Origin: Candidatus Methanoperedens sp.
Lineage (GTDB): Archaea; Halobacteriota; Methanosarcinia; Methanosarcinales; Methanoperedenaceae
Assembly (NCBI GenBank): GCA_028715885.1
Contig: JAQUQX010000013.1
Coordinates: 1 to 44,979, forward strand
DNA length: 44,979 nt
Reading direction: 5' to 3'
Positions 2,063-40,591 of this stretch are shown here, one piece after another. The notes beneath the pieces were generated by a model. It was given only the letters and a program-made list of their open reading frames with translations, was not told the origin of the DNA and did no database searches. The stretch's first letter is position 1, and every line of letters begins with the position of its first letter. A program made the translations under genes and the position numbers.

Positions 2063-2869
2063 ATGAGAATTGCCGTGGTTTTTGACAGCGCAGGAACTTT
2101 GCTTCGCATGTACCGCGTGGCAAAGAACATAGAAACAGGCGAGTATCTCGAGGAAGTAGTTACCACCGAGCTTGTCGGGAAAAAACCATACTGCGCCATC
2201 CTTGTGATGCAGGTGGATTCAAACAGGCTCGTAGATTGCCCTCCTCAAATGTTGATTTCCGGGTTCATTAAAGAATATAATATTGACCTTGAAGTGGGAT
2301 GCTCAAGAGCGCAGATAGATAAACAAACCGCATTTTCCGCAGTCCAGAATGACGCCAGGGCAAAAATGAAAGACCTTCAGGACGTGATGGCTGCGGTTAA
2401 AAAAAGATGCAAGGATATTTTTTACATGGGTGTTGGTTTGATTATCGATGTTGAGAAAAAAAATATACCTTATGTTATTTGCACGGGCGGGAGAGTGTAT
2501 TCGAGCAGCCCTTCCGTTATAAAAACACTTAACGAAATGAGTGTGGACGCGTACATTGCCTCGGGCGACAGCATGCGAAACCTTGGCGCGCTTGCGAATA
2601 AAGTCGATGTGCCCATCGAAAGGGTGTTCGAGATAGCCACGCCGCATAAAAAAGAAGAGATTGTGAAGAACTTAAAAAAACAATACGATAAGGTGGTAAT
2701 GGTAGGGGATGGAATCAATGATATTCTTGCGATGCGCGCCGCGGATCTGGGGGTGCTTTCCATACAGCAGAGCGGGGAATGCCTGCCGATGCTTCGCGAG
2801 GAGGCGGATGTGGTGATAAGGGATATTAAGGAGATAGTTGGGGTTGTGGAAAAATTAGCTAAGCCGTAA
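2063..2869 (+). CDS. HAD-superfamily hydrolase (soluble P-type-ATPase-like phosphatase)
   Basis: The 268-residue protein has the haloacid dehalogenase signature: motif I FDSAGTL with the nucleophile Asp8, motif II SGDS at about 167-170, a lysine-rich motif III around 196-210, and motif IV GDGIND at 215-220. Motif I is D-S-A-G-T rather than the D-x-D-G-T of ordinary HAD phosphatases. The GDGIND region, followed by MRAADLGV, resembles the P domain of P-type ATPases, but there are no membrane segments. This fits the soluble 'P-type ATPase-like' phosphatases of archaea (COG4087-like). The substrate is unknown. An insert of about 100 residues (40-140) carries most of the family-specific sequence. 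A truncated second copy of the C-terminal quarter lies at 4281-4505. Confidence 0.75.
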   Translation: MRIAVVFDSAGTLLRMYRVAKNIETGEYLEEVVTTELVGKKPYCAILVMQVDSNRLVDCPPQMLISGFIKEYNIDLEVGCSRAQIDKQTAFSAVQNDARAKMKDLQDVMAAVKKRCKDIFYMGVGLIIDVEKKNIPYVICTGGRVYSSSPSVIKTLNEMSVDAYIASGDSMRNLGALANKVDVPIERVFEIATPHKKEEIVKNLKKQYDKVVMVGDGINDILAMRAADLGVLSIQQSGECLPMLREEADVVIRDIKEIVGVVEKLAKP

Positions 2870-2907
2870 ATATCTTTTCCAGATACGCAGAAGCAGCGAA
2901 CGATATC

Positions 2908-4203
2908 TCATTCCAGCAGCCATTTCCACAGCGCCATATAAATTATTTTTCTCCCTTCAACCATTTCCTCCCCCTCAAAATCCTCAGTTATCATAAACCC
3001 TTTTTCAAGCTCAAACTCCCTCATTGCCTCCATCAATCCTTCAATTTCCCTTTTTTTGGTTTTTTCATCATCCAAACTCCAGCAAACCTGTATAGCCTGC
3101 GCGATCTTCATACCTTTCCTGATCACAAAATCAGTTTCTCTCTGGCGCCCGTTCTTCCAGTAATATACTTCTTCTCCACGCCTTGTTAATTCAAGGAATA
3201 CTATGTTTTCAGCGATCTTCCCCATATCTTCGCTTACCCTGAAAGATATCGCATTTCGCAGCCCTGCATCTATGCAGTAAACCTTTCTTGGATTTTTTTC
3301 CTGTTCTTTTAAGGAATATGCATGCTTTTTTACAAAGAAAAACAGGTACGAATACGAAAGGTAATACGAAAATCTTTCAATCGTATGTAAAGGAATATCT
3401 AAAAACCCCTTTATGCTGTTAAAGCTAACTGGCGAAGAGATATTTGTAATGTAAAATTTTGAAAGTGCCATCAACTTTCCATGAGACTTTATTCCGTGTT
3501 TTACAATAACATCTTTTGAAAGAATGTCATCATAATAATCTCTCAACATCGAGCTTTTGTCTTCAGAAAGGACTACCTTTGGAAAAGCGCCAAATCCCAT
3601 GTACTCGCGAAGAAAACGCTGTATAGCGTGGCGGTGTGAAATCATATCAAGATTTGTTTTTATTTCAACGCCCTTGAATTTCAAGAATTCATCAAAACCC
3701 AATGGAAATACCTGGATGGTTATATGTCTTCCAGTAAGCGCAGTCCCGAATTCTTCACTCAGCAGTTTTGATGAAGACCCGGAAACAATCGAATATGCCG
3801 CATCACGTTCATGAAGAGACCTTACGAACTTTTCCCAGCCTTTGATGTGCTGCACCTCATCTAAAAAAACATACGGCTTACCATCCGGCTCGAGAAATTC
3901 GATATAAACTTCGTATATTTGTTGTAATATTTCAATCGAAAGGTCGGCGCCAAACCTGGGATCCTCAAAATTCACGAAAAGAGTATTTTTTTTATTAACG
4001 CCGTTTTTTACAATCTCTTTAAGATATTGTTTCATGATTGTGGACTTCCCTGAGCGGCGCGCCCCCACAATTGTCGCCACCTGTCCGGATTTTAAAGCAT
4101 TATTAACCTTTTCAATATATGTTCTCCGTTCTATCCCGGTAGTGATCTCTTTATCCCAGAAATTCCAATCTGACAATATTTCTATTAACCTTGCCTTTTC
4201 CAT
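2908..4203 (-). CDS. AAA-family ATPase with DUF4143 C-terminal domain
   Basis: The 431-residue protein has a P-loop GARRSGKST at about 47-55 and a Walker B YVFLDEVQH at 111-118, followed by sensor-like VSGSSSKLL. The C-terminal half has the DUF4143 pattern: a short alpha-helical region, then the ENIVFLELTRRG...YYWKNGRQRETDFVI block at about 335-362. That block resembles an Archaeo-Holliday-junction/PD-(D/E)XK-like fold and is commonly attached to this ATPase class. These proteins are widespread and scattered in archaea; their role is unclear, though mobile or defence-related roles have been proposed. It lies between the intact HAD gene and the HAD relict on the opposite strand. A TATATAAA box (minus strand, 4226-4233) sits about 26 nt upstream of the ATG, indicating a leaderless message. 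Confidence 0.8.
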   Translation of the reverse strand: MEKARLIEILSDWNFWDKEITTGIERRTYIEKVNNALKSGQVATIVGARRSGKSTIMKQYLKEIVKNGVNKKNTLFVNFEDPRFGADLSIEILQQIYEVYIEFLEPDGKPYVFLDEVQHIKGWEKFVRSLHERDAAYSIVSGSSSKLLSEEFGTALTGRHITIQVFPLGFDEFLKFKGVEIKTNLDMISHRHAIQRFLREYMGFGAFPKVVLSEDKSSMLRDYYDDILSKDVIVKHGIKSHGKLMALSKFYITNISSPVSFNSIKGFLDIPLHTIERFSYYLSYSYLFFFVKKHAYSLKEQEKNPRKVYCIDAGLRNAISFRVSEDMGKIAENIVFLELTRRGEEVYYWKNGRQRETDFVIRKGMKIAQAIQVCWSLDDEKTKKREIEGLMEAMREFELEKGFMITEDFEGEEMVEGRKIIYMALWKWLLE

Positions 4204-4225
4204 GATGAATTATATAGTTTAATTG

Positions 4226-4233
4226 TTTATATA
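4226..4233 (-). promoter_or_regulatory. TATA box of the DUF4143 ATPase gene
   Basis: TATATAAA on the minus strand, centred 26-27 nt before the first base of the ATG at 4203. This matches an archaeal core promoter with little or no 5' leader. Confidence 0.6.
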
Positions 4234-4235
4234 TT

Positions 4236-4267
4236 CATGGGTTACTTTTCCAACTTAGTAACCCATG
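4236..4267. repeat. Perfect inverted repeat next to the ATPase promoter
   Basis: CATGGGTTACT at 4236-4246 and AGTAACCCATG at 4257-4267 are perfect 11-bp inverted arms with a 10-nt spacer. The repeat lies just upstream of the ATPase TATA box, where a B-recognition element or operator would be, and just before the HAD relict. It could be an operator, a hairpin or an insertion scar. Confidence 0.7.
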
Positions 4268-4280
4268 GGCTTAATATTGT

Positions 4281-4505
4281 GTGATTCAGGCTCTCACCGA
4301 ACGATTGAAACAGCAATACGATAAGGTGATTATGGTGGGCGATGGGATTAATGACCTGCTTGCGATGCGCGCAGCGGATCTGGGGGTGCTTTCCATACAG
4401 CAGAGCGGGAAGTGCCCGAAGCTTCTGTGCGAGGAGGCGGATGTGGTGATTAGGGATATTAAGGAGATTGTTGGGGTTATTGAAGAGAGGGTTCTCAAGA
4501 GTTGA
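4281..4505 (+). pseudogene. Truncated HAD hydrolase paralogue (C-terminal fragment)
   Basis: A GTG-initiated frame of 74 codons reproduces the last 65 or so residues of the HAD protein at 2063-2869. The shared parts include QYDKVxMVGDGIND, the MRAADLGVLSIQQSG block, and EEADVVIRDIKEIVGV. DNA identity over about 170 bp is roughly 85-90% by eye, and many differences fall at third codon positions. The N-terminal three quarters, including the motif I nucleophile, are missing, so this cannot be a working phosphatase. I read it as the relict of a diverged paralogue. It has no convincing promoter of its own, though it could still be translated. Confidence 0.75.
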
Positions 4506-4659
4506 TTTGCTATTCAACGGCCAAGATTTCGCTTTACTCAAATCAGGGGCATCTCGATTGTGCATTAATTTCGGTTGTAGGCAGTTGTTTGATAAAGTCT
4601 AGCAAGAAAGGAATTAGAAACCTCAAGACTCAGCCAAAAAGTATATTTGAAAACACTAT

Positions 4660-7134
4660 TCATTTCTCATTATCTTCTCCTGAAAAAAAAGAAAGATACA
4701 TTTGCTGGAGATCATGAGGGATTATATTGATAGCACTATATATTCTTTCCAGTATTTTGTCTGGATGCCCCTGAATCCCAACAACATTTCCATCTTTATC
4801 TATGAAACCAGGAATAAACGTTTTCAAACTTTCAATTAATGATTCTAATTCCTTAATAGATAAATGAATAGATTTACGGCGCAATTCATTTCTTACAACT
4901 GCAATTTCAGGAGGTTCAGTATCATTCTTTTGAAGATCATAAATTGTTTCAATGATTTCTCTGATAGGAGGAAACGTCACCACTTCATTTTGTATTTTGT
5001 TCACCCATTCAGTAACTTCATAAGGCGAATGGCATGTTTCAAACAACTCTCGAATTTTTGACAAGCCAATTTGTTTTGGTGCAACAAGTAATATCAATCT
5101 CATCAAGTCTTTTGCTCTCATAACCGTTACTTTTTGTTGTATTGCTTCTTTAGATATTGCACTTTCAGGATCATTAGACCCTGCATAATCAACAGCAATT
5201 ACCACTGAAAAATCAGCATTATAATCCTTCTGATGACGCTTTATACCAGAAAGTTTGGCGGTTGCAGCTTGTATTTTAGTCTCTTGGGTACTTTTAGCAT
5301 CATAAGTAAGTGAATAATTATTGCTTCTTTCACCGCTACCAAATCCTAAAATGGCATCGGCTCTCCCATCAGGTGTTCCAGTGCCACCAATTTTTGTTGT
5401 CTCAAATCCTAGTGCAAGAAACGCATTATAAACTGCGTCTTCAAGCCCGGTTTGGTCAACAATTGCCTCTTTTAACATTTGAGCAACCACGGGAGCTGCT
5501 ACACGATCCGACAACGATAATTTTCTCAAAGTTTCATCGCGTCGTCTCATTATTGCATTAATTTTTGATTCGTCTATACCAAGTTCATACAAATGGGCTT
5601 CCGTCAAAACTTCCGTTATAGCAAGGTACTCAAGGGGCTGGCCGCTTTTTTTGTAAGCTTCGTGATAATTTGCGATATATGGATGAAGCATATTGATCTT
5701 CATCTTGCCTTGTACTAAGTCGAGCTTGGCAATAGGATCACCTGAATTTAATAGCAACCATTCTACTTTCTTTATTATAGAATCCTCACTTGATAACTCT
5801 TCTTTTAGCCGATCGAGTAATTCTGATTTAAGATTATTGGGAGGTTTTTCAATAAGAATTGGATTTACAATATCTCCATCAAAAAATTTCTGAGCAAATA
5901 CATAAAGAGGTCTTTTAGATTGGGTAAAGGAAGTTTGTGATAGGCGATAAGATATACTTCTCTCTCTGTTTTCTTTATTTTCTTCCTCGAAATAAAATTT
6001 CTTCACTTCATTATTAAATTTGCTTTTCAAATAATCTTTCAACTGCCATAAAGGCTCAGACTCTTTTATTGATTCACGAGTTGAAGTTAAATTTTCATCC
6101 AACCCATCGGCATGTATAACTATTCTAGATCTGTTGAATGCACCATGTGAAAAAGCTTCCATCCCTAAAAGTGAATCATCAAGATTAACTAAACGCCCAC
6201 GAACCATTAAAAAAATTCCATGACTCCTTGATAGATATGACGCTTTATCATTAGCAAGAAGCGAATCTTCAAACAAATCAATCTGACCATAAACACCTTT
6301 TAAATTATCAAAATCGATAAAGTATTTGTCTCCCTCTTGCCTGGAAACTGCATAATCTTTTGAATTTACAGTAGGATCATCCTTCCCAAGTATCCATGTT
6401 TTTCTAATTGGCTTTGATATCTTTGAAGAGTATATTTCATTGCCATTGTAATAGAGTTTAAACCTTGGATTAAGAGGTAGTGCCGTACTCAACACCCATT
6501 TTAACCGCCCGTCTTTTATTTCAGAAGATTTTGGTTTCAAGCTAGTAAGAATCGAAAAAGTCCAACTTTCAGCTGCATCTTCTCCAAAAAGTTTGAATGG
6601 GAGTGGGTTATTACCTGCAGAATGGATATAAGGATTTAACACTTCTTGGACTTCGGTTTCTTTAATCTCTCTTTCATCAAGTTTAAATTCATCATTTTCA
6701 TCAGAAATCTCATTATAGTCCATAGTTGTTGCTAGATAACGACCATCTTTTTTACAAAAATACGTCAACTTGTTAGCTAAAACATAGGTTGCTAACTTTC
6801 CTATTCCAAATCTTCCAATTTGAAGGCGTTTAGCGTCTCTTTTGGGGTCACCTCTTTTAGGAGACTTTCCAATATTCCATAGGGCCTTTAATCCTTGTTG
6901 ATCCATACTTTCACCGTCATCACATACCCAAATATATGCACCATCAACCTTTAAATCGGATGGGACATACACAGCTACGTTATTGGCAAAAGCATCGTAT
7001 GAGTTACAAACGAGTTCCTCAAATGCCTTATTAGGGCTCGAATATAAACCCCCTGAAAACAACTCAATTATTTTATAACTGATTTTTACATCAATAGTAT
7101 CAATTTTCACACCACAAGATTCAATAGACATCAT
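4660..7134 (-). CDS. MORC/MutL-like GHKL ATPase fused to a PD-(D/E)XK nuclease domain
   Basis: The 824-residue protein opens with a GHKL (HSP90/MutL/MORC-type) ATPase: N-box FEELVCNSYDA at about 38-48, DDGESM at 72-77 (D-x-G-x-x-M) and GRFGIGKLA at 107-115. A transducer-like middle region follows. Near residues 565-615 there is a nuclease-like block: Glu565 in a helix, then PDGRAD (588-593), then YDAKS with Asp612 and Lys614, i.e. the PD-(D/E)XK core. The C-terminal ~200 residues are helical. Bacterial and archaeal MORC-like ATPases tied to restriction systems are known (Iyer, Abhiman and Aravind's work). The start overlaps the methyltransferase stop (ATGATG; the second ATG at 7131 is better spaced from GGGAGG), so the two genes are translationally coupled. 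Probable role: ATP-dependent restriction of unmodified DNA. Confidence 0.8.
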   Translation of the reverse strand: MMSIESCGVKIDTIDVKISYKIIELFSGGLYSSPNKAFEELVCNSYDAFANNVAVYVPSDLKVDGAYIWVCDDGESMDQQGLKALWNIGKSPKRGDPKRDAKRLQIGRFGIGKLATYVLANKLTYFCKKDGRYLATTMDYNEISDENDEFKLDEREIKETEVQEVLNPYIHSAGNNPLPFKLFGEDAAESWTFSILTSLKPKSSEIKDGRLKWVLSTALPLNPRFKLYYNGNEIYSSKISKPIRKTWILGKDDPTVNSKDYAVSRQEGDKYFIDFDNLKGVYGQIDLFEDSLLANDKASYLSRSHGIFLMVRGRLVNLDDSLLGMEAFSHGAFNRSRIVIHADGLDENLTSTRESIKESEPLWQLKDYLKSKFNNEVKKFYFEEENKENRERSISYRLSQTSFTQSKRPLYVFAQKFFDGDIVNPILIEKPPNNLKSELLDRLKEELSSEDSIIKKVEWLLLNSGDPIAKLDLVQGKMKINMLHPYIANYHEAYKKSGQPLEYLAITEVLTEAHLYELGIDESKINAIMRRRDETLRKLSLSDRVAAPVVAQMLKEAIVDQTGLEDAVYNAFLALGFETTKIGGTGTPDGRADAILGFGSGERSNNYSLTYDAKSTQETKIQAATAKLSGIKRHQKDYNADFSVVIAVDYAGSNDPESAISKEAIQQKVTVMRAKDLMRLILLVAPKQIGLSKIRELFETCHSPYEVTEWVNKIQNEVVTFPPIREIIETIYDLQKNDTEPPEIAVVRNELRRKSIHLSIKELESLIESLKTFIPGFIDKDGNVVGIQGHPDKILERIYSAINIIPHDLQQMYLSFFSGEDNEK

Positions 7135-8393
7135 TTCCTCCCAATTAATATAAATTCTTCACTGTATATTTTACGACCTCTACCATCCTTAGTAAAGCGC
7201 CCTTGTTGATCCCGATACGGTGTTAAAATTTTCTTGCTGATTTTACGTTTTGTGACGAGTACTTCACTGAATCCACTATTTTGTAGTGACTCTGCTAGGT
7301 GACATGCATTATCAATTTTAACTCCTTTGAATTCGGTGTTTCCGATAACAAAAAGTGCCATTCCACCATTTGAAAGCATTGAATAACAGGTTGCTGTGAC
7401 ATGTTGCATATCTAAATAATATTTTGCTACGGAATGAGCCTTCGAACTATTATTGTCCAATAATCTAAACACAATATGAGTACCGGTATTGTTCAGGTGT
7501 TTAAGTTCTCTTTCAAAATTATAAACATGATGCCTGCTTCCTATAGAGCCTTCACGTAGTTCACGGTAGTCTTTGACAAAACCAAGCCACAGCGATGAGA
7601 GTTGGTGCAGATCTGCATATTCATATGAAGTCACATAAGGGGGACTGGTAATTATCATGTCTACTTTTGGCATATTAATCGAAGAATCTAGAAAGCTTCC
7701 CGTAATGATGTCGGTGCTGGATTCACCTGTAACATCGCTTTCATTATTTGCTGACATCATGAATTTACATTGTTTTTTAAAAGCGTCCATTACATCTGCA
7801 ATTTGCTTGTTTGGATCAACCTGAGGCTTGATTGATTTCGTGAGCCAACGAGAAGTTGATTTGAGAATATTGGAAAATGCACAAGTGAAGAACAGACGGT
7901 AATCGCTTTTTAAAGGCGTTGATTCGTCAATTGCAACCTTCAGGCGAAACAAATCGTCATAGTGTGCCTTATCATACCAGTATCTAATACGCTCATTTGA
8001 GGAGTCGTAATCAATCTCACTAATATTTTTATGGGCAAATGTATCTAAAATGTCTTTATAATATTTTTTTAGTCGTTCGGGCTGGTATTTTCGACTTTTT
8101 ACCTTTGCTATCATTGTTGCCACAGGATTTATATCACATCCCCAGAAGTCGATATCACAGCGTTTGGCTTCAAATGCCACAGTCCCGCAGCCACAGAAGA
8201 CATCAGCAATCTGGTTCGTTTTAATAGAATTTTTTCTGGCGTAGTCAAGCGCCTTAGTGGTTATGAAGGCAGGAAACTTCGCTGGATATGCGTGAATCTT
8301 ATGCATTTTAAGTTCTTTTTCACCAGTATTCCAAAAGGAATCAATTGGAATGGAGTCAAAGTCTATATTTTTTATATCAGTGATTTGTATCAT
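7131..8393 (-). CDS. DNA methyltransferase of the GHKL-nuclease unit
   Basis: This 420-residue protein carries the SAM-binding motif I DVFCGCGT at about 64-71 and, later, the catalytic motif TSPPY at 249-253. The order is motif I before motif IV, as in alpha/gamma-class amino-methyltransferases. TSPPY suggests an N4-cytosine or N6-adenine enzyme; the target base cannot be decided here. The N-terminal HKIHAYPAKFPAF block (about 31-43) is a feature I associate with a subset of restriction-linked methylases. The product would protect host DNA from the nuclease encoded by the next gene, with which it overlaps by 4 bp. Base composition is AT-richer than the aminotransferase gene upstream, in keeping with a laterally acquired cassette. 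Confidence 0.85.
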   Translation of the reverse strand: MIQITDIKNIDFDSIPIDSFWNTGEKELKMHKIHAYPAKFPAFITTKALDYARKNSIKTNQIADVFCGCGTVAFEAKRCDIDFWGCDINPVATMIAKVKSRKYQPERLKKYYKDILDTFAHKNISEIDYDSSNERIRYWYDKAHYDDLFRLKVAIDESTPLKSDYRLFFTCAFSNILKSTSRWLTKSIKPQVDPNKQIADVMDAFKKQCKFMMSANNESDVTGESSTDIITGSFLDSSINMPKVDMIITSPPYVTSYEYADLHQLSSLWLGFVKDYRELREGSIGSRHHVYNFERELKHLNNTGTHIVFRLLDNNSSKAHSVAKYYLDMQHVTATCYSMLSNGGMALFVIGNTEFKGVKIDNACHLAESLQNSGFSEVLVTKRKISKKILTPYRDQQGRFTKDGRGRKIYSEEFILIGRK

Positions 8394-8517
8394 TGTGTAG
8401 TGTCCGAATACGTTTTTTCGAATTAATCTTCTTTTGGAAATTTAGGTCATTCATATCAAAATATCTCATTAGATCTTCAAGTTGTTGCCTGTTATATAAC
8501 TCTGCCACAGCACCCAC
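8377..8517 (-). other. Possible short ORF ahead of the methyltransferase
   Basis: A GTG-initiated frame of 46 codons (another GTG at 8523) fills the gap between the aminotransferase stop and the methyltransferase, overlapping the methyltransferase start by 17 bp. The product would be charged (ELYNRQQLEDLMRYFDMND, then a lysine/arginine-rich tail). I recognise no family and no helix-turn-helix. It could be a small regulator of the unit, a gene remnant or chance. Confidence 0.25.
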
Positions 8518-8519
8518 AT

Positions 8520-9620
8520 TCACCCAAGCACCCTCTCCATCACCCCAATCGCTTTCCTCAAATTCCCCTCAGAAACTGCATACGAAATCCTGATATGCCC
8601 CTTCCCGTTCTCCCCGAAAGCCGAGCCTGGAGTAACAATCACGCCTTTTTCCAGCAATTTCTGCGGCGCATCCCCATCCGCAACCTCAGGGAATGCATAG
8701 AAAGCCCCCTGCGGCTTCACGCATTTAATACCCATTGAAGCAAATCCGGAAAGTAAGATATCCCTTCTTGCCCTGAAACTTGCGCGCATCTCGCTCACGC
8801 ACTCCTGCGGTCCTTCAATCGCAGCCAGCGCCGCCTTCTGCGCTATCGAGCAGGCGCATGCCTGGATGTACTGGTGAATTTTGAGCATCTGCTCGATATA
8901 TTCCTTTCGCGCGGCTGCGTAGCCAATGCGCCAGCCTGTCATGGCATAGGTCTTTGAGACTGCGTTGATGGTAATAACATTATCAGTGAACTGCGCGGGG
9001 CTGACATGCTCGCCCTCGTAAATGAAATGTTCATACACCTCATCCGAAATTATGGTAATATCGTTATCCTCGGCAATCTCTGCCATCGCTTTAATCTCCT
9101 CCCTCGTCTGGACAGTACCTGTAGGGTTTGAAGGTGAATTGAGAAATAATGCAACGGTTTTAGGGGTTATGCATTCATTCACGGCATCGGGAGTCAATGT
9201 CAGCTCTTCGCCAAGGGGCACGCCCACGACTTTTCCCCCAGCCATCTTTGCCAGAGACGAATACGATACAAATCCGGGGTCTGGTATCAGAACATCATCG
9301 CCTGTATCTACCAGAGCCTGCAGCGCAAGATGAAGTGCCTCCGATGCACCGGATGTTACAATTACCTCGTCGGACTTAACAGTAAACTGGTTCTCAGTCT
9401 CAAACTTCCTGCACAGGGCTTCCCGAAGCTCAGGAATCCCAAGATTCGCCGTATAGCCTGTGAAGCCTTTATTGATAGCGTCGATAGCTGCCCTTTTAAT
9501 ATGCTCCGGAGTGTCGAAATCCGGCTGACCCAATCCCAGGTTTATGGCATTGGGACCCGCGCCTTCAAACATTTTGCGGATTCCCGATATGTCTATACCC
9601 TTTACCCTTTGCGAGAACAT
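8520..9620 (-). CDS. PLP-dependent aminotransferase, class I/II
   Basis: The 366-residue protein is a fold-type I aminotransferase of the aspartate aminotransferase family. It shows the N-terminal INLGLGQPDFDTP block, NSPSNPTG for substrate and cofactor binding, ISDEVYEHF with the PLP-binding Asp and Tyr, SKTYAMTGWRIGY with the Schiff-base lysine, and a C-terminal HIRISYAVSE arginine that would hold the substrate carboxylate. Length is typical. The exact substrate (aspartate, aromatic or branched-chain amino acid) cannot be told from sequence alone. It follows the hexuloisomerase gene by 2 bp on the same strand, so the two are probably co-transcribed. Confidence 0.85.
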   Translation of the reverse strand: MFSQRVKGIDISGIRKMFEGAGPNAINLGLGQPDFDTPEHIKRAAIDAINKGFTGYTANLGIPELREALCRKFETENQFTVKSDEVIVTSGASEALHLALQALVDTGDDVLIPDPGFVSYSSLAKMAGGKVVGVPLGEELTLTPDAVNECITPKTVALFLNSPSNPTGTVQTREEIKAMAEIAEDNDITIISDEVYEHFIYEGEHVSPAQFTDNVITINAVSKTYAMTGWRIGYAAARKEYIEQMLKIHQYIQACACSIAQKAALAAIEGPQECVSEMRASFRARRDILLSGFASMGIKCVKPQGAFYAFPEVADGDAPQKLLEKGVIVTPGSAFGENGKGHIRISYAVSEGNLRKAIGVMERVLG

Positions 9621-16396: not shown

Positions 16397-17323
16397 TCAT
16401 CCTATACAAAAAAGCAAATCTTTAGAGTAGAGCACAAGCTTCTGAATTTCTTGGTGTTTTAGCTCTCTGGAATGCGCGATGTTATTCCTAATATGTTCAA
16501 GTTCTTTCAACTTTGCAGAAACGATTTCTTTATCTTTAAATACTTTAGAAAAAATCTGCTCCCAGTTGTCTTTTCGGAGAATAATTTTTGAATAATCCGT
16601 AAAATCCACATAAAAAATTAGATGTAAATCTCTTTGTTCATACCATGGATACAGTCCCTCATTCCTATTTTTTCTTTCTTGTGCTCTTTGTTGGACATCT
16701 GAGGGTATTCTTTCCTTCCACCAATTATTTGAGAGGGGAGAAAGTTTACTTTGGATTAAACCTCTTAACCTTGTTTCTAGATGCTTTAATGCTGAATATG
16801 CCTCTTCTTGCTTGATTTCTCCCTCTTTTTGCAAAAGCTGAGGTATATCTATGTTATATACTAGCTGTTCACATTCAAGTTCCTCTAAAAATGCAATACC
16901 ATGCCGAATCTTTGTTTCAACTTTTGAAAAATGTTGTGTTACAAGGAACTTTTTAAGCAAGATACGACTATTTCCTTTTATATTAACTCCTTTTTTACAA
17001 ATCGATATCGAGGAAATCAATGATTTTACTTCATCTGCCCAGCTTATATAATAAGCTTCTAAAGTTTTAATTATTCCCTGTCTTTCTGCAACTTTTTGTT
17101 TTTGATTTTTCAATTTTATATATTTCCTGGCAGTTTTACCAGCAAAAGAGGTTTCGAATAAATCGGTAGCCATATCTCCCCAAAAGGTAGATTTTACGTC
17201 TTGTACTAATTCTCTCAGCGGTTCCGATTGCGATTTGCTTGTATCTGATTGATATTGCCAGTCTAAAATGGAGTTTCCTTTCTGAATTAAATATTCAATC
17301 TTGGGTTTTAGCGCGTCAGACAT
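16397..17323 (-). CDS. Swt1-type HEPN domain protein in a restriction-modification operon
   Basis: In the 308-residue protein the last ~110 residues fit the Swt1-type HEPN domain: WWKERIPSDVQQRAQERK near 201-218, a DLHLIFYVDFTDYSKII segment, DNWEQIFSKVF, and RNNIAHSREL at 279-288. RNNIAH (Arg279, His284) is the RX4H motif that forms the RNase active site in HEPN toxins. The N-terminal ~190 residues are helical and lysine-rich, without a family I recognise. It follows the methyltransferase by 19 bp with GG-rich spacing ahead of the ATG and forms the third gene of the operon. A plausible role is RNA cleavage as a second layer of defence, but the target and trigger are unknown. Confidence 0.75.
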   Translation of the reverse strand: MSDALKPKIEYLIQKGNSILDWQYQSDTSKSQSEPLRELVQDVKSTFWGDMATDLFETSFAGKTARKYIKLKNQKQKVAERQGIIKTLEAYYISWADEVKSLISSISICKKGVNIKGNSRILLKKFLVTQHFSKVETKIRHGIAFLEELECEQLVYNIDIPQLLQKEGEIKQEEAYSALKHLETRLRGLIQSKLSPLSNNWWKERIPSDVQQRAQERKNRNEGLYPWYEQRDLHLIFYVDFTDYSKIILRKDNWEQIFSKVFKDKEIVSAKLKELEHIRNNIAHSRELKHQEIQKLVLYSKDLLFCIG

Positions 17324-17342
17324 TCCTATTAACCTTTTTACT

Positions 17343-18377
17343 TTATTCCTGAGCTTGCTGCAATAATTGGAAATCTTCAGAATTTTGTACTATTGAAACC
17401 AATCTGCTCTGTGTTTTCTTTATTTCAACATTAAAAACATTTTCATTCAATAGTCTGTAATACAAACTTTTAATCTCATTTTCATCTGTTATATTAATAA
17501 ATCTGAATACAGATGCAGCCGAGTATTTCCTTTCAATTTCAATAGATATCCATTTGCGTTGATTTTCTTCTGCTGCCTCACCTGTTGTATTTGACCCAGC
17601 AAAAATATCTAAAACTGTGTCGTCCGGTTCGGTGAGAAATTTAATAAAAAATTCCGGTAATTTTTTTGGGAATCGTGCAGGATGTCCTTCAGCATTTACA
17701 ATCTTGCAATACCGCAGATATTGAGAATTGCTTTCCGTATTTGGGATTTGTAATAAATTCGATGGAATAGACCCACCTCTATCAACATCAAAGCCATCTG
17801 ATATATCATGACCAGAGGGTCGCATTTTTGGCGTATAATATTTATTTCCATTTTTTAACAATTCCTTCATCCGATTGGAGTAAGGAGCCAAAACCCTCTT
17901 TACATCTGCCTTGGGAAAATCACTTTTTGAGAACCACCACACAGTATTTACCGCGTCCTTTACTCTCATTTTCCTTTTATTAACCCATTCGATGGGAGAG
18001 GGCAACTTGGCAGGATTAAACCAAAAAAATTCTTCTGCTAAATTAAATCCAATCTCTTCACAAAATTTTATTAAAACCTTATAGTTATATATTGACCTTA
18101 CAGGTCTCCCTTTTTCATAGGCTCCTCCCAAGTCTAAAACAAAACTACCATCTTCTGCCAGAACATCTTTTACCTTTTTTGCGAATTGGGCAAGCCAATC
18201 AACATATAGCTCTTGTACCACATTTCCATATTCTTTTTGTCTTTGTAATGAGAAAGGTGGTGATGTAACTACAAGATTTATTGAATTTTTTGGCAGAGTA
18301 TCCAGCAAGTCCAATGAATTGCCAACAAATGCCTGTCCACAATCTGTCGTATATAGGGGTTGGATAATTTTATTCAT
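17343..18377 (-). CDS. Beta-class DNA methyltransferase (probable N4-cytosine or N6-adenine)
   Basis: The 344-residue protein has the catalytic motif TSPPF at 38-42 and, later, the SAM-binding motif I DIFAGSNTTG at about 257-266. Motif IV before motif I is the beta-class order. Serine in the SPPF motif is frequent in N4-cytosine methylases such as the PvuII type, but does not prove it. An intervening DRGGSIPSNLLQIPNTESN and HPARFPKKLPEFFI block is also typical of type II enzymes. The ATG follows the stop of the HEAT-repeat gene directly (TAAATG), so translation is coupled. Its job is presumably to protect host DNA from the nuclease of the same operon. Confidence 0.88.
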   Translation of the reverse strand: MNKIIQPLYTTDCGQAFVGNSLDLLDTLPKNSINLVVTSPPFSLQRQKEYGNVVQELYVDWLAQFAKKVKDVLAEDGSFVLDLGGAYEKGRPVRSIYNYKVLIKFCEEIGFNLAEEFFWFNPAKLPSPIEWVNKRKMRVKDAVNTVWWFSKSDFPKADVKRVLAPYSNRMKELLKNGNKYYTPKMRPSGHDISDGFDVDRGGSIPSNLLQIPNTESNSQYLRYCKIVNAEGHPARFPKKLPEFFIKFLTEPDDTVLDIFAGSNTTGEAAEENQRKWISIEIERKYSAASVFRFINITDENEIKSLYYRLLNENVFNVEIKKTQSRLVSIVQNSEDFQLLQQAQE

Positions 18378-19868
18378 TTAATAAACCTCCAGCCCATTTA
18401 TCCAACTGGATAAAATCTTCCATAAAACAGTTACTGCAAAATAAACCTCAGCATCTTTATTTTTCAGTTCTTCTATTTGATTAATATACCTCTCTTCTTT
18501 TTGTGTTCCAATTATCCAAGCAATCCATTTTCTGGCGTCATCATCAATCATTAGAGGCAGTAAATCTGGTATTGAAAAGTTTCCACTTTTACTTAATGAC
18601 CACGAAATACCAGCTCTTTGCTGTTCATTACTCTTCAAAATAAATTTCATTACCTCTTTTGCAAATGAATCATTAAGCTTTACTAAAGCCCTTGCAGCTT
18701 CGATTTTAATGTTTATTTCTACATCATTAAAAACATTTACCAAAGCATCCAGAGCTTGTTTATTTCCTAATTCTCCTAAAGACCATGCAGCCCCTGCTCT
18801 TATTTCAGGATGCTGATTTTTATCCAGCAATGTTTTAACTAAAAGGTCGCATGATTCGTCTCGGTTTATTTCGCTCAGAATTATCACACACTCTAAGCGA
18901 TTTGCTAAATAAGAATCATTTAACACTTTTTCAAAGAACGATATGCTATTCCGTTGTCCCATTTTTAGGAGGCTTGAAGCCGCCTCCAATCGAATATATA
19001 TGTGCTCTCTTTCATCATTCATCTTCTCGATTAAATCTGCGATTGAATCTTTTGATTCAAAATAAGGTAATGCTTTTGCTGCTGCATATCTTTCACTCAA
19101 AGAAGGGCTATTTAGCATTTCTATATAATTTTTATCGTTATGGTCTTTATTACAACCGAATTCTCTAAAAACAGGAGATATGCAAGCTATAATTTGACTC
19201 TCTCGGATTTGTTCATCCAATTTTACTGTTGGTGATAACCTAACATTAGTATCATTTATCTTTTTAACGAGTTTTAAAGTAACTATCCTATTGTCCTTTA
19301 CACGCTTGAATTGGATTTTTTCTTCATTAATATTAGAGATTACACCATCTGAATTTGCAATTGCTGACGGCCATGTTAATCTAACCTCAAACCCTTCTGT
19401 TGCCCCTTTCGGTTTTTCAGAAGTTACTTTACCTTCGTTAAATGCTTTTCGTAATTCACTAACTGGGAGATACTGTATCAAATCGTATGCAAGCCAATCA
19501 ATAGGTCTATCTCCCGTTTTTACACATTTTACTAAAGCAACAAAATCAGTGTCTTGTAATCCAAAATCCCAGCCTCTTTCTTGATTCGAAAGTGAATGTG
19601 ACATAGACATTTCTAATTTCGTTTTTGCTCTCGATTCAACTCTCGTACCACAATTTATACAAAGAATATCTGGAACCCTTACTCGTTTTATCTTAATTTC
19701 TTTCCAAATCTTAAAACTAGTAGAGCCTCTTTCTAATTCGATGGGAAAATGACCCCGATTTACTAAATCTTGATAAACTTTTTTTGTTCCAATTGCACCA
19801 ATAGATATCTTTTCAAGAAAGCTCTCATCGGTTTTAAACGCTCTTTTGTTATTCATGATGTCTTTCAT
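18378..19868 (-). CDS. HEAT-repeat protein with putative N-terminal restriction nuclease domain
   Basis: In the 496-residue protein, residues ~245-480 form about seven HEAT-like helical repeats (for example RYAAAKALPYF, IRLEAASSLLKMG, IRAGAAWSLGELGNKQALDALV, IKIEAARALVKL). Residues ~1-230 look different. VPDILCINCGTRVESRAKTKLEMSMSHS at about 65-92 has a PD...E-x3-K arrangement (Asp67, Glu78, Lys82) that could be a PD-(D/E)XK-type nuclease core with a CxxC pair, and ERGWDFGLQDTDFVALVKC follows. I infer that this is the restriction component paired with the adjacent methyltransferase; the catalytic assignment is tentative. The second ATG (19856, MNNKRAF) is an alternative start. Confidence 0.65.
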   Translation of the reverse strand: MKDIMNNKRAFKTDESFLEKISIGAIGTKKVYQDLVNRGHFPIELERGSTSFKIWKEIKIKRVRVPDILCINCGTRVESRAKTKLEMSMSHSLSNQERGWDFGLQDTDFVALVKCVKTGDRPIDWLAYDLIQYLPVSELRKAFNEGKVTSEKPKGATEGFEVRLTWPSAIANSDGVISNINEEKIQFKRVKDNRIVTLKLVKKINDTNVRLSPTVKLDEQIRESQIIACISPVFREFGCNKDHNDKNYIEMLNSPSLSERYAAAKALPYFESKDSIADLIEKMNDEREHIYIRLEAASSLLKMGQRNSISFFEKVLNDSYLANRLECVIILSEINRDESCDLLVKTLLDKNQHPEIRAGAAWSLGELGNKQALDALVNVFNDVEINIKIEAARALVKLNDSFAKEVMKFILKSNEQQRAGISWSLSKSGNFSIPDLLPLMIDDDARKWIAWIIGTQKEERYINQIEELKNKDAEVYFAVTVLWKILSSWINGLEVY

Positions 19869-32856: not shown

Positions 32857-35249
32857 ATGGCAATTAAGAAGAGTGAATTATACAGCTCTCTCTGGAAAAG
32901 CTGTGATGAGTTAAGGGGTGGAATGGATGCCTCACAATACAAAGACTATGTACTGGTATTGTTATTCGTAAAATATGTATCAGACAAATATGAAACAGAT
33001 GCTCGTATTTTAATTCCCGAAGGTGGCGGCTTCAAAGATATAATTGCTTTGAAGGGGAAAAAAGAAATTGGCGATGGCATCAATACTATTATAAAAAAGC
33101 TGGCAGAAGCCAACAACTTGAAGGGTGTAATTGACGTAGCTGATTTCAACGATGATGACAAGCTGGGTAAAGGAAAGGAAATGGTTGACAGGCTCACCAA
33201 CCTTGTAGCTATTTTTGAAAATCCTTACCTTGATTTCAGTAAGAATAAAGCCGAGGGTGACGATATTTTAGGCGATGCCTACGAATACTTGATGAGGCAT
33301 TTTGCAACTGAATCGGGTAAAAGCAAAGGGCAATTTTATACACCGGCAGAAGTGTCGAGAATATTGGCTAAGGTAATCGGCATCAATAAAGCCAAGAGCC
33401 AGGAACAAACCATTTACGACCTTACCTGCGGGAGTGGATCGCTGTTAATAAAAGCCGCTGATGAATCCGAAACAGGTGTGACTATCTATGGTCAGGAGAT
33501 GGATAATGCCACGGCTGCACTGGCTAAAATGAACATGATTTTGCATAACAACCCAACGGCTGAGATTTGGAAGGACAATACGCTTTCAAATCCTTATTTC
33601 AAGAATCCGGACGGAACGCTTAAAACCTTTGATTTTGCAGTCGCTAATCCTCCCTTTTCCAACAAAGCATGGAGCAATGGCTTTGACCCTGCAAATGATT
33701 TGTACGACCGTTTCAAAGGATATGGCATACCTCCAAGAAAAATGGCGATTATGCTTTTCTTTTGCATATGATCCGTTCACTAAAAAGCAAAGGCAAAGGC
33801 GCCATCATTTTGCCGCATGGCGTGCTTTTTCGCGGGAATGCAGAGGCAGAAATACGCAAAAACATCATTCGCAAAGGATTTATCAAAGGCATTATAGGCT
33901 TGCCTGCAAACCTGTTTTACGGTACCGGTATCCCTGCATGTATAATTGTTCTTGATAAAGAAAATGCCGACAGCCGCAGAGGTATTTTTATGCTCGATGC
34001 CAGCCGCGGCTTTGTAAAAGACGGCAATAAAAACCGCTTGCGAGAGCAGGATGTACACAAAATCGTTGATGTATTCAACAAACAAACAGAAGTACCTAAA
34101 TATGCCCGTATGGTATCAGTAGAGGAGATCGAACGGAACGAGTACAACCTGAATATCCCTCGTTATATTGATAGCCAGGAAGCTGAAGATATACAGGATA
34201 TTAAGGCACATTTGTTGGGTGATATTCCCAACAGGGATATTGAAGATTTAGAAAATTACTGGAAGGTATATCCTTCACTTAAAAATGTGCTATTTGCCGA
34301 AAGCCCGAGAGCAGGGTACAGCAAGCTAAAAATACCACAGGAAGAAATTAAGCATGTTATTTTTTCTCATCCCGAATTTACAAGCTATACTCAGGAGATA
34401 GATGTTGTTTTTGAAAATTGGAAAGAAAAACACGCACCCATACTGAAAAGTCTGGCTGTGGGTGCCAAGCCAAAAGAAATTATACACAACTTATCGGAAG
34501 CTATACTTACATCATTTGCGGATAAAAACCTGATCGACCAGTACGATATATATCAGCATATCAGGACCTACTGGATGGAAACCATGCAGGATGATGTTTA
34601 CCTGATCGTTGTGGATGGCTGGAAGGCTGAACTGACTCTTGTTAAAGGAAAGAAGGATGAATGGGACAGCGACCTTGTGCCGAAGCAACTGGTGATCAAC
34701 CGGTATTTTGCCGAAGAACAAAAAGCTATAAAGCAACTGGAAACAGACCGCGATGTCATAACCCGCCAGATGGAAGAATTGGAGGAAGAACACGGCGGAG
34801 AAGATGGTTTGCTGGAAGAAGCAAAAACTGACAAAGGCAAGGTTACAAAAGCTCTTATTCAAAAGCGTGTCAAAGAAATTAAGAATGATGCAGATGCTTC
34901 CGAAGAAATGAAAGTGTTAGAGGGATATTTGAAGCTGATAGAGAAAGAAGCTGATGCCAATAAGAAAATAAAAGATGCCCAGACAGCGCTGGATAAAAAA
35001 GTAATAGCCGGATACAAAGCGCTTACAGAAGATGAAGTGAAAACCTTAGTTGTGGACGATAAATGGATGGCTGCCATCAGCCAGGATGTAAAAACCGAAT
35101 TGGAACGCATCTCCCAGCGCCTTACACAGCGCATTAAAGAACTGGCAGAACGCTATGCTGCGACATTGCCGGAATTGAATACAAAGGTGGAAGGGCTGGA
35201 AGCAGAAGTGGGTAAGCATTTAGAAAAAATGGGGTTTGTATGGAAATAA
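32857..35249 (+). pseudogene. hsdM: Type I restriction system methylase HsdM, split by a frameshift
   Basis: Frame one (32857-33771) gives residues 1-304 with motif I DLTCGSGSLL at 188-197 and NPPF at 264-267, ending abnormally after GYGIPPRK. Frame two (33762-35249, 495 residues) continues with HMIRSLKSKGKGAIILPHGVLFRGNAE, the expected sequence. Adding one A in the A-run at 33738-33742 (five As; six would keep frame) joins them into a protein of about 800 residues with a long coiled, lysine/glutamate-rich C-terminus. So one base is lost, either truly, by sequencing error, or bypassed by slippage. The gene starts the type I operon. HsdM would methylate adenine together with HsdS and is also part of the restriction complex. 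Confidence 0.88.
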
Positions 35250-36355
35250 TACCTAATGAGAAGACCGGAATTGTGCTTTACGGCAATTTATTAAACGATA
35301 TTAAAACCCGCATTCGTCAGGCACAGGTGAAGGCAACACTTTCAGCAAATGCCGAGATGATAATGATGTATTGGGATGTAGGCAGGATGATACATGAACG
35401 ACAGCAACAGGAAGGATGGTCAGCTTCAATTATTCCCCGTCTTTCCAGAGACTTAAGAAACGAACTGCCTGAAGTAAAGGGTTTTTCTGAGCGCAACCTT
35501 GGGCGTATGCTTGCTTTTTTTCGCAATTATCAAAATATCGAATCATTTTTGCCACAGCCTGTGGCAAAAAGTGAAATTTTGCACCAGCCCGTGGCAAAAT
35601 TGCCATCGTCAGACCTGATCCGGAACATTCCATGGGGGCATCATGCGCTTTTAATGGAGAAAATAAAAGAGAATTCCGTACGATTCTGGTATATGACACA
35701 AATTATCCAGAATGGATGGAGCAGGGATACTCTGGGGTTGATGATTAAAAGCGGCATCCATGAACGGCAAGGGAAATCCATCACCAATTTCAGATCTACT
35801 CTTCCTGATTCGCAGTCCGACCTTGCCCGGCAATCCCTGAAAGACCCGTACATTTTTGATTTTATGACATTGACCGAACCTTTTAATGAACGGGAACTGG
35901 AAACAGAACTGATTAAACATCTTGAAAAATTCCTGCTGGAGCTGGGCACCGGTTTTGCCTTTGTCGGAAGGCAGTATCATCTGGCAATCAGCGATAAAGA
36001 TTTTTATATCGATCTGCTGTTTTATCATCTGAAACTGCGCAGCTTTATTGTGATTGAACTGAAAAAGGGGGACTTTAAGCCTGAATACGCAGGCAAGATG
36101 AATTTTTACTGTTCCGCTGTTGATGATCTTCTCAGACACCCTACTGACAATGCTACTATAGGGCTGATATTGTGCCAGACCAAAGATAGGATACTTGCCG
36201 AGTATGCCCTGTGGGACATACATAAACCCATCGGCATATCCGAGTATGAACTGACCCGCGCCCTGCCTGAAAACCTCAGGTCCAGCCTGCCGAGCATTGA
36301 GGAGCTTGAAGCAGAACTGGGCGGGATACATAAAGAGGATAGCGGCGATGAGTGA
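35240..36355 (+). CDS. DUF1016 (YhcG-like) nuclease-domain protein
   Basis: The 371-residue protein has an N-terminal DUF1016 winged-helix part (SANAEMIMMYWDVGRMIHERQQQEGW, SRDLRNELPEVKGFSERNL) and a C-terminal nuclease domain: DKDFYIDLLFYHLKLRSFIVIELKKGDFKPEYAGKMNFY with Asp258 and Glu273/Lys275 as a PD-(D/E)XK core. A QPVAK repeat in the linker (about 106-120) occurs twice. Family members are often found in or next to type I restriction loci and other defence clusters. It starts inside the last codons of hsdM and ends inside the hsdS start, so it is a true operon member, perhaps an accessory nuclease. Confidence 0.87.
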   Translation: MEIIPNEKTGIVLYGNLLNDIKTRIRQAQVKATLSANAEMIMMYWDVGRMIHERQQQEGWSASIIPRLSRDLRNELPEVKGFSERNLGRMLAFFRNYQNIESFLPQPVAKSEILHQPVAKLPSSDLIRNIPWGHHALLMEKIKENSVRFWYMTQIIQNGWSRDTLGLMIKSGIHERQGKSITNFRSTLPDSQSDLARQSLKDPYIFDFMTLTEPFNERELETELIKHLEKFLLELGTGFAFVGRQYHLAISDKDFYIDLLFYHLKLRSFIVIELKKGDFKPEYAGKMNFYCSAVDDLLRHPTDNATIGLILCQTKDRILAEYALWDIHKPIGISEYELTRALPENLRSSLPSIEELEAELGGIHKEDSGDE

Positions 36356-37574
36356 TATACCGGAAGGCTTCAGGCAAACAGAGGTTGGTGTTATTCCTGA
36401 GGAGTGGGAGGTGAAGAAGTTGGGGGAGATTGTCAGGAAATTTGTAAATGGAGGTACACCTTCAACACAATTTGAAAATTATTGGAATGGAAATATTCCT
36501 TGGATAACAGGTGCCGATATTTTAAACCAAGAAGTTTCTGCAATTAGAAGATATATTACAAATGATGCAGTAAAGAACAGTTCAACAAATGTTATTGAAA
36601 AGGGAAACCTCTTGCTTGTATCAAGAACTGGGGTCGGGAAGATAGCAATTGCACCATTTGATGTAGCAATAAGTCAGGATTTCACTGGAATTTATGTCAA
36701 AAACGAAGAATTACTTGCAGAATATCTTTATAGGTATTTTGATTTCAACCAATCTACTTTACAAAGTCAAAATCAAGGGACTTCAATACAAGGAATAACC
36801 AGAGATACTTTATCATCAATTACAATACCGCTCCCACCCCTCCCCGAACAGCAAGCCATAGCCTCCGCCTTAAGCGATGTGGATGCACTCATTACCGTAC
36901 TGGAGCAACTCATCACCAAAAAGCGAAACATCAAACAGGGCGCCATGCAGCAGCTCCTCACAGGCAAGAAACGCCTGCCGGGGTTTAGTGGGGAGTGGGA
37001 AGTGAAGAAAATAAAGCAACTGGGCGAGGTTATTACTGGTGGAACACCCTCAACACAGATTAAAGAGTTTTGGAATGGAACTATTCCTTGGGTTACACCA
37101 ACCGATATTTCAAACAAAAAAGATATTTACCAAACGGAGAGAGAAATTACTTCTTTTGGTTTGTCATCTATCCGAAGGCTCCCTAAAAATTCTGTGCTTG
37201 TAACTTGTATTGCAAGCATAGGAAAAAATTCGATTTTGAGAATTGATGGCGCTTGTAATCAACAAATAAATGCCATAGTTCCAAGTACGGAAAATAATGC
37301 TGATTTTATTTATTACTTAATGGAAAATAAAAAATCATATTTATTAAGTAATGCAGGTAAAACTGCAACGAATATTATTTCAAAAAAGGATTTTTCAGAA
37401 ATGTCTTTTGCAACACCTAAAATCCCAGAACAACAAGCTATCGCCCAAATCCTCAGCGATATGGATACCGAGATAGAAGCCCTGGAACAAAAACGGGATA
37501 AGTACAGAGCGCTCAAGCAGGGGATGATGCAGGAATTGCTCACCGGTAAAACGAGGTTATTATGCCAACAGTAG
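36348..37574 (+). CDS. hsdS: Type I restriction system specificity subunit HsdS
   Basis: Starting at ATG 36348 (8-bp overlap with the nuclease gene), the 408-residue protein has two target-recognition domains. Both open with the same phrase: GGTPSTQFENYWNGNIPW and, after a spacer, GGTPSTQIKEFWNGTIPW. The conserved helices PLPEQQAIASALSDVDALITVLEQLI and IPEQQAIAQILSDMDTEIEALEQKRD divide and close them. The domains thus arose by duplication, and the protein recognises a split DNA site. The DNA target cannot be predicted from sequence alone. It overlaps hsdR by 13 bp. Confidence 0.93.
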   Translation: MSDIPEGFRQTEVGVIPEEWEVKKLGEIVRKFVNGGTPSTQFENYWNGNIPWITGADILNQEVSAIRRYITNDAVKNSSTNVIEKGNLLLVSRTGVGKIAIAPFDVAISQDFTGIYVKNEELLAEYLYRYFDFNQSTLQSQNQGTSIQGITRDTLSSITIPLPPLPEQQAIASALSDVDALITVLEQLITKKRNIKQGAMQQLLTGKKRLPGFSGEWEVKKIKQLGEVITGGTPSTQIKEFWNGTIPWVTPTDISNKKDIYQTEREITSFGLSSIRRLPKNSVLVTCIASIGKNSILRIDGACNQQINAIVPSTENNADFIYYLMENKKSYLLSNAGKTATNIISKKDFSEMSFATPKIPEQQAIAQILSDMDTEIEALEQKRDKYRALKQGMMQELLTGKTRLLCQQ

Positions 37575-40500: not shown

Positions 40501-40591
40501 CGAAGTAAAATATGCCATAAAAAAACACATCAAAGATGATGCAGAAGCGGAACGTGTTTTTGAATTAGTAAAAAATCAGAAAGAGTATTAA
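37562..40591 (+). CDS. hsdR: Type I restriction system endonuclease/translocase HsdR
   Basis: The 1009-residue protein has the N-terminal PD-(D/E)XK nuclease block RPDVVLYINGIALGVLELKRS (Asp135, Glu149, Lys151), then an SF2 DNA-translocase motor: Walker A AQGSGKS at about 274-280, DECHRTQ at 385-391, FTGTP at 411-415 and the motif VI region FQAICRVNRLDGEDKEYG. A long helical C-terminus links to HsdM. It cuts DNA far from unmodified sites after ATP-driven translocation. Frame and motifs look intact. The next gene, the YgjP-like metallopeptidase, starts 2 bp after the stop. Confidence 0.94.
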   Translation: MPTVGQIERLTQNRLVALFQKQLDYEYLGNWEERENNSNIEEDILRKYLTGRGYSQALIGKAIYELTQAATNQSKSLYDINKDVYTLLRYGVKVKEDVGENTRTVWLIDWENPGENHFAIAEEVTIRGENKKRPDVVLYINGIALGVLELKRSTISVSEGIRQNLDNQKQVFIRPFFSTIQLVMAGNDTEGVRYGAIETPEKYYLAWKEESDIENALDRHIVQLCSKVRFLEMLHDYIVYDRGIKKLCRHNQYFAVKASQESLRKREGGIIWHAQGSGKSLIMVWLAKWIRENIRDSRVLIITDRDELDKQIEKVFKGVSEDIYRTKSGMDLIGKLNATTPWLLCSLIHKFGNKEEADYDAFIEDLKKSLPKDFRAKGDIYVFIDECHRTQSGKLHEAMKKILPNALLIGFTGTPLLKKDKKKSLEVFGKYIHTYKFDEAVTDKVVLDLRYEARNVDQNITSQAKIDEWFEAKTRGLTDYAKIELKKKWGTMKRVLSSQSRLEKIVADIYFDIETKDRLQNGRGNAMLVSGSIYEACKYYELFQNASLKKCAIVTSYTPKTSDQKGESTGEESPTDKLKKYEVYQKMLNGKDPEKFEDEVKKKFVEEPAQMKLLIVVDKLLTGFDAPSATYLYIDISMQDHGLFQAICRVNRLDGEDKEYGYIIDYKDLFRSLEKSVDDYTSGAFDAYDGEDVSGLLSNRLKEAKGHLDNTLESIKALCEPVAPPKDSLAYSRYFCGNTENKNELKENEPKRIALYKHTSALVRAYAAIASEMEKAGFTPEEIEQIKKDVKYYEDVRAEIKLKSGDYIDLKAYEPAMRHLIDTYISAKESQKISAFDDMTLIQLIVKRGGDAVKALPDGIKRNKEAVAETIENNIRKLIIDEMPTNPKYYEKMSTLLDELIKERKEEARSYEEYLARIVELTKKVNNPATSSTYPVTLNSSAKRALYDNLSHDAELTMALDAEICHTKKDGWRGNIIKEREVKYAIKKHIKDDAEAERVFELVKNQKEY

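Follow-up and report, generated by a model that had tools for sequence, protein, structure and literature searches.

What do a DNA methyltransferase gene and the ATPase-nuclease gene into which it runs encode as a unit? The question is raised by positions 4660-8393 (minus strand) of a 44,979 bp stretch of a Candidatus Methanoperedens sp. assembly (contig JAQUQX010000013.1; hereafter the window), where a methyltransferase gene (8393-7131, 420 aa) is followed by a gene for an 824 aa protein (7134-4660), with the stop and start of the two open reading frames overlapping by 4 bp (7131-7134). A first-pass annotation, made from the sequence without database searches, had described a MORC/MutL-type GHKL ATPase fused to a PD-(D/E)XK nuclease and coupled to a methyltransferase, and had read the unit as an ATP-clamp restriction system in which dimerisation of the GHKL domain would control cleavage. 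The motifs on which it relied were all recovered in the order given: FEELVCNSYDA, DDGESM and GRFGIGKLA near the N-terminus and PDGRAD...YDAKS at residues 588-615 of a single 824-residue chain, next to an overlapping TSPPY methylase. The gene pair is not a product of chance, because the larger protein matches Pfam HATPase_c_3 at 2.4e-19, its partner matches N6_N4_Mtase at 6.9e-12, and homologues without internal stops exist. As argued below, the pair probably constitutes a two-gene ATP-dependent restriction-modification system.

Relatives of the 824 aa protein were gathered from archaeal genomes, from 84,980 species represented by a single genome each, and from viral contigs. Full-length homologues without internal stops were found in other archaea at 47-68% identity, Methanolobus profundi having a nuclease 68% identical together with its methylase, and the search of one genome per species yielded 80 further loci from bacteria and archaea. 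The majority of the relatives found were bacterial, and the emphasis that the first-pass annotation had placed on archaea was therefore misplaced. Seventy-three full-length GHKL-nuclease chains were aligned, and the conservation counts for this protein given below refer to this set. The pairing of an amino-methyltransferase with a GHKL-nuclease is found again in many phyla of both bacteria and archaea.

The N-terminal half of the protein carries the motifs of the GHKL superfamily in a highly conserved form. HATPase_c_3 was the only Pfam family above cut-off in the 824 aa protein; E40, N44 and D47 are kept in 72 of 73 homologues (one gap), D72, G107, G110, G112 and K113 are identical in all 73, and G74 of the DxG motif is invariant or nearly so. 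An AlphaFold2 model of the whole chain (mean predicted local distance difference test score, pLDDT, of 87) was compared with the PDB using Foldseek, which returned TRAP1/Hsp90 (1.5e-15) followed by the ATPase cassettes of MORC2, MORC3 and MORC4 (1e-13 to 4e-12), with alignments covering the GHKL domain and the S5 domain behind it. The modelled fold is thus that of a GHKL+S5 module of the Hsp90/MORC kind, and MutL was not among the 50 best PDB matches of the full-length model. The strict MORC S5 motif GhXhhpXXRhl (Iyer 2008) was matched in none of the 73 homologues, in which the polar position is occupied by V (56) or I (17), although at least 10 of its 11 positions were matched in 48. Accordingly, the label "MORC/MutL-type" did not hold as worded: the protein resembles the paraMORC group, and membership of MORC itself was rejected since the strict motif fails in every member.

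These residues also bear on a somewhat unlikely alternative, an ordinary type II restriction-modification system whose GHKL part has a structural or regulatory role and which cuts DNA without ATP hydrolysis, perhaps in the manner of BbrUII/HgiDII. Indeed, the nearest curated model, which has the GHKL+S5 half in common with the 824 aa protein, describes type II restriction enzymes, and ATP dependence of the protein is putative. Against this, the ATP-binding and catalytic residues of the GHKL domain and two arginines of S5, R314 and R353, hardly ever vary among the homologues, which points to a selected ATPase function.

The second half of the fusion required separate treatment. A single-sequence search of the PDB with the GHKL-nuclease gave no match, a search of the PDB with a profile of the C-terminal part gave matches at chance level only (e.g. 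troponin C, E 0.03), and the full-length Foldseek search was swamped by the ATPase half; the C-terminal part was therefore folded and searched on its own. Its model (pLDDT 90) matched HindIII (4.3e-5), FokI (3.3e-4) and AspBHI (3.5e-4), and then the nickase Nt.BspD6I. Among the 73 C-terminal halves, Pfam detected Mrr_cat in 24 (best 8.8e-6) and the FokI cleavage domain in four, and hhalign aligned the nuclease region to an archaeal HARE-HTH/Mrr_cat protein with a probability of 99.2%. K614 is present in all 73 homologues, position 612 is D or E in all 73, E565 is kept in 72, and position 589 is D in 64 and E in nine. In the model the first helix carries E565, D589 immediately precedes the second strand and D612-x-K614 closes the third strand, positions that agree with the requirements of the nuclease fold. 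By sequence and model, then, the PDGRAD/DAK region lies in a PD-(D/E)XK nuclease of the FokI/HindIII/Mrr-like type, and the fusion proposed by the first-pass annotation is borne out by conserved residues and models alike. The protein shares with all three enzymes the fold and the E, D and (D/E)xK residues, and its PDG...DAK spacing recalls the PDG...DTK motif of FokI, whereas none of them is fused to a GHKL ATPase. The same nuclease type also occurs fused to HARE-HTH, without a GHKL part, in a 495 aa archaeal protein (L032:8991-10475, minus strand), suggesting that the nuclease module moves independently.

The partner enzyme is predicted to be a methyltransferase of the exocyclic-amino type (N6-adenine or N4-cytosine). 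In addition to the Pfam match, it matched PHROG 18146 (8.8e-36) and, over residues 19-418, the PADLOC model MTase_II PDLC03322 (8.3e-40). In motif I, D64 and G68 are present in all 76 partner methyltransferases having residues there; in motif IV, S250 and P251 are found in 75 of 78 partners, and P252 and Y253 in all 78. Adjacency was counted in 73 loci having sufficient flanking DNA. In 66 of these the nuclease gene has a methyltransferase no more than 250 bp away, a number that rises to 68 at 1.5 kb, and 59 of the 66 close ones are on the same strand as the nuclease, often overlapping or abutting it. Methyltransferases make up 74 of the 157 immediate neighbour genes, compared with 10 of the 565 other genes in the same loci (1.8%). 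Co-occurrence elsewhere, on which the first-pass annotation had staked its restriction-modification reading, is thus the rule, and linked methyltransferase and restriction enzyme genes are one mark of such a system, another being methylation of a motif that is cleaved when unmethylated.

The partner is not always of one kind. In the clade of the window the methyltransferase is mostly upstream and carries TSPPYVTSYEY, whereas elsewhere it is mostly downstream and carries TSPPYLNAIDY; a few partners are convergent or of other types, including LPYWN enzymes in small archaea and a beta-class N6_N4 enzyme on a viral contig (L114). Mapping these types on the nuclease tree required six changes. The nuclease therefore retains a methylase even though the methylase gets exchanged, as restriction-modification predicts.

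This constancy argues against a rather improbable reading in which the 824 aa protein is an effector of the Shedu type I-D/VcSduA kind that senses phage DNA ends or structures, the methyltransferase being a loosely linked passenger or regulator. VcSduA has the same order of GHKL ATPase and PD-(D/E)XK nuclease and proven anti-phage activity, for which both ATPase and nuclease residues are required (PMC12137116), and five relatives of the window protein have no methyltransferase within 1.5 kb. VcSduA is, however, described as a single-gene system, yet here a methylase is adjacent in nine-tenths of loci and kept through replacement. Moreover, the DUF4263 domain of Shedu gave no Pfam match at E<=1 in the full 824 aa protein and was not among the 25 families listed for the 73 C-termini.

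Relatives of the window's methylase also occur away from the GHKL-nuclease, to which this methyltransferase type is not exclusive. On an Azobacteroides plasmid (L149:3935-5859) a distant relative adjoins a split restriction enzyme of the MvaI/BcnI type. The methylases of MvaI and BcnI use N4-cytosine chemistry, and this neighbour hints that N4-cytosine methylation is possible for the window's group. On an Allorhizobium plasmid (L148:6221-8491) a protein with HATPase_c_3 and a C-terminal HATPase_c replaces the nuclease beside a relative of the window's methylase, and proteins of the same composition are encoded after the nuclease in two Flavobacterium genomes (L042:9489-11714 and L057:9496-11721). 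These kinase-like GHKL proteins resemble HEF_HK proteins (PMC8011034).

Taking the pair as an ATP-dependent restriction-modification system, we infer a working cycle in which the methyltransferase would mark a short motif of the host DNA at an amino group, either N6-adenine or N4-cytosine, and the 824 aa protein would act as the restriction enzyme. The GHKL+S5 module would bind ATP and close into a dimer in the manner of Hsp90 and MORC, and closure would join two FokI/HindIII-like nuclease domains on unmethylated DNA, producing a double-strand break; methylated sites would be protected, and phage DNA may be a target. Much of the sequence recognition may be provided by the variable C-terminal region, since residues 691-824 are the least conserved part of the protein (mean pairwise identity of 0.25, the lowest), and Foldseek gave weak winged-helix matches there. 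Several points weigh against this interpretation. The structure models are monomers, with a full-length predicted template modelling score (pTM) of 0.61; the Foldseek scores for the nuclease are modest, the best being the HindIII match; and no methyltransferase was found close by in L051 and L100, while in L065, L093 and L099 it is 2.8-3.4 kb away, so that some members lacking the partner may act alone or depend on modification. A more far-reaching version is possible, and we offer it tentatively: a GHKL clamp rather than the helicase motor of types I and III would close around DNA and set two nuclease domains to cut, topological capture serving to check or link sites, in a broad restriction-modification family of bacteria and archaea with exchangeable methylases that is absent from the curated libraries tested. 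If ATP gating is true, the family would represent a non-helicase route to ATP-dependent restriction; with just two genes, it would also allow a direct test of the proposal that MORC-like ATPases originally worked together with nucleases and methyl marks.

The distribution of the gene is sporadic. Among 31 genomes of the genus, two have it; the copy outside the window (G337) shows 47% identity and is not on the contig that holds the junction described below. On the tree the nearest relatives are from Methanolobus, Kiritimatiellota (Kiritimatiellales) and Verrucomicrobiota (Verrucomicrobia). Spread of the pair by lateral transfer is the best reading, because this clade joins Methanolobus with the two bacterial phyla and only these two genomes of the genus carry the gene. 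Flanking the window copy are a HAD-type gene (2063-2869) and an aminotransferase gene (8520-9620), which in the sister genome L135 are about 45 bp apart as judged by matches, and four other genomes of the genus (L128, L129, L131 and L136) have different genes in this interval. The HAD/aminotransferase junction (2063-9620) is thus a variable-cargo site in the genus. Past the end of the nuclease gene, the window carries a second copy of the terminal part of the HAD-type gene, likely a scar of integration at the junction; L129 has a HAD 3′-end duplicate too.

Such a distribution sits poorly with a repair or DNA-topology enzyme that nicks in a MutL-like manner and is tied to methylation marks, a reading that we regard as very improbable. 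MutL is among the GHKL-nuclease fusions, and repair roles have been suggested for some stand-alone paraMORC3 proteins (Iyer 2008, PMC2292703). The cargo-like position, the constant pairing with exchangeable methylases and a nuclease like those of type II restriction enzymes all argue otherwise, and the TIGR00585 MutL profile matched the 824 aa protein at an E of only 0.071.

Features of the gene pair and its flank in the window. Domain borders of the 824 aa protein were drawn from the AlphaFold2 model.
Feature	Position	Strand	Basis
GHKL ATPase-PD-(D/E)XK nuclease fusion, 824 aa	4660-7134	-	Pfam, 73-chain alignment, AlphaFold2
GHKL ATPase domain, residues 1-200; E40/N44/D47 N-box, D72/G74, ATP-lid G107-K113	6535-7134	-	HATPase_c_3, conservation, Foldseek
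S5/transducer-like domain, residues 201-358, invariant R314 and R353	6061-6534	-	model, Foldseek, conservation
Long helices after S5, residues 359-424	5863-6060	-	model secondary structure
Mostly helical middle region, residues 425-555	5470-5862	-	models
PD-(D/E)XK nuclease core, residues 556-690	5065-5469	-	conservation, Pfam, Foldseek, hhalign
Predicted nuclease active-site residues (codons)	E565 5440-5442; D589 5368-5370; D612 5299-5301; K614 5293-5295	-	
C-terminal helical and winged-helix-like region, residues 691-824; candidate DNA-recognition part	4663-5064	-	model, weak Foldseek matches, low conservation
DNA methyltransferase, 420 aa, motif order I then IV, TSPPY	7131-8393	-	Pfam, PADLOC, PHROG
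Methyltransferase motif I DVFCGCGT, residues 64-71, predicted S-adenosylmethionine binding	8181-8204	-	partner conservation
Methyltransferase motif IV TSPPY, residues 249-253, predicted catalytic	7635-7649	-	partner conservation
Duplicate of the 3′ end of the HAD-type gene (2063-2869), 86% DNA identity	4305-4484	+	

Other features of the window were noted alongside. By eye, an archaeal TATA-box-like octamer, TTATATAA, is found at 8492-8499, some 100 bp ahead of the methylase start. A small upstream frame of 46 codons that overlaps the beginning of the methyltransferase gene was dismissed as a candidate controller gene, its best counterpart in the fetched loci reaching only E 1.0. The variable junction that holds the gene pair also contains an AAA_14/DUF4143 ATPase gene (2908-4203, minus strand). 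Further along, a type I restriction-modification locus (32857-40591, plus strand) comprises hsdM, a YhcG/DUF1016 nuclease gene, hsdS and hsdR; hsdM is split in two frames near 33765 by a frameshift or assembly error, since the N6_Mtase profile stops at position 164 in one open reading frame and resumes at 167 in the next. A second DNA-methylase locus (16397-19868, minus strand), in which a beta-class N6_N4 methyltransferase (17343-18377) is flanked by a Swt1-like HEPN protein and a HEAT-repeat protein, is possibly another defence unit.

Comparison with known systems places the family close to several described groups. Nuclease-fused paraMORC3 ATPases in restriction loci were described by Iyer, Abhiman and Aravind in 2008, who suggested a DNA-looping or DNA-linking role for them (PMC2292703). 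Like them, the 824 aa family combines GHKL+S5, as seen in the model, Foldseek matches and conservation, with a C-terminal restriction endonuclease-fold nuclease bearing E-D-(D/E)xK, is mobile, occurs in restriction-modification neighbourhoods and lacks the strict MORC motif. Compared by description, the paraMORC3 nucleases came to light through RecB-family hits and some of them are stand-alone (PMC2292703), whereas the present nuclease is Mrr/FokI/HindIII-like and nearly always beside an amino-methyltransferase. A phage protein annotated as ParaMORC3 (L017) proved to be a BbrUII member that aligns with the 824 aa family over GHKL+S5 only.

The best NCBIfam model was likewise that of the named restriction enzymes BbrUII/HgiDII (NF050001), at 75.0 bits against a cut-off of 550 and over residues 18-389 only. 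The GHKL+S5 parts are homologous (hhalign 99.6%, 331 columns, window residues 13-388), but the C-terminal halves do not align (hhalign 0.1%), and M.HgiDII and M.BbrUII are 5-methylcytosine methylases (PMC5867850) whereas the window partner is an amino-methyltransferase by its TSPPY motif and N6_N4_Mtase match; on these three grounds membership was rejected. Shedu type I-D shares the domain order, but has a DUF4263 nuclease and a single gene, with no methyltransferase described (PMC12137116), and membership was rejected because Pfam did not detect DUF4263. Eukaryotic MORC2, MORC3 and MORC4 share the fold of the GHKL+S5 cassette but have no nuclease.

No curated model among the libraries tested spans the full length of the 824 aa family, and for nine representatives PADLOC returned only weak, partial type II matches; the alignment of 73 diverse members marks it out as a conserved family. 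A description of the gene pair was not found in the literature, although most subscription journals, and REBASE, lay outside the search and one there is possible. The kind to which the family belongs is already known from paraMORC3, BbrUII/HgiDII and Shedu I-D; what is new in it is the nuclease subtype and the methylase partner.

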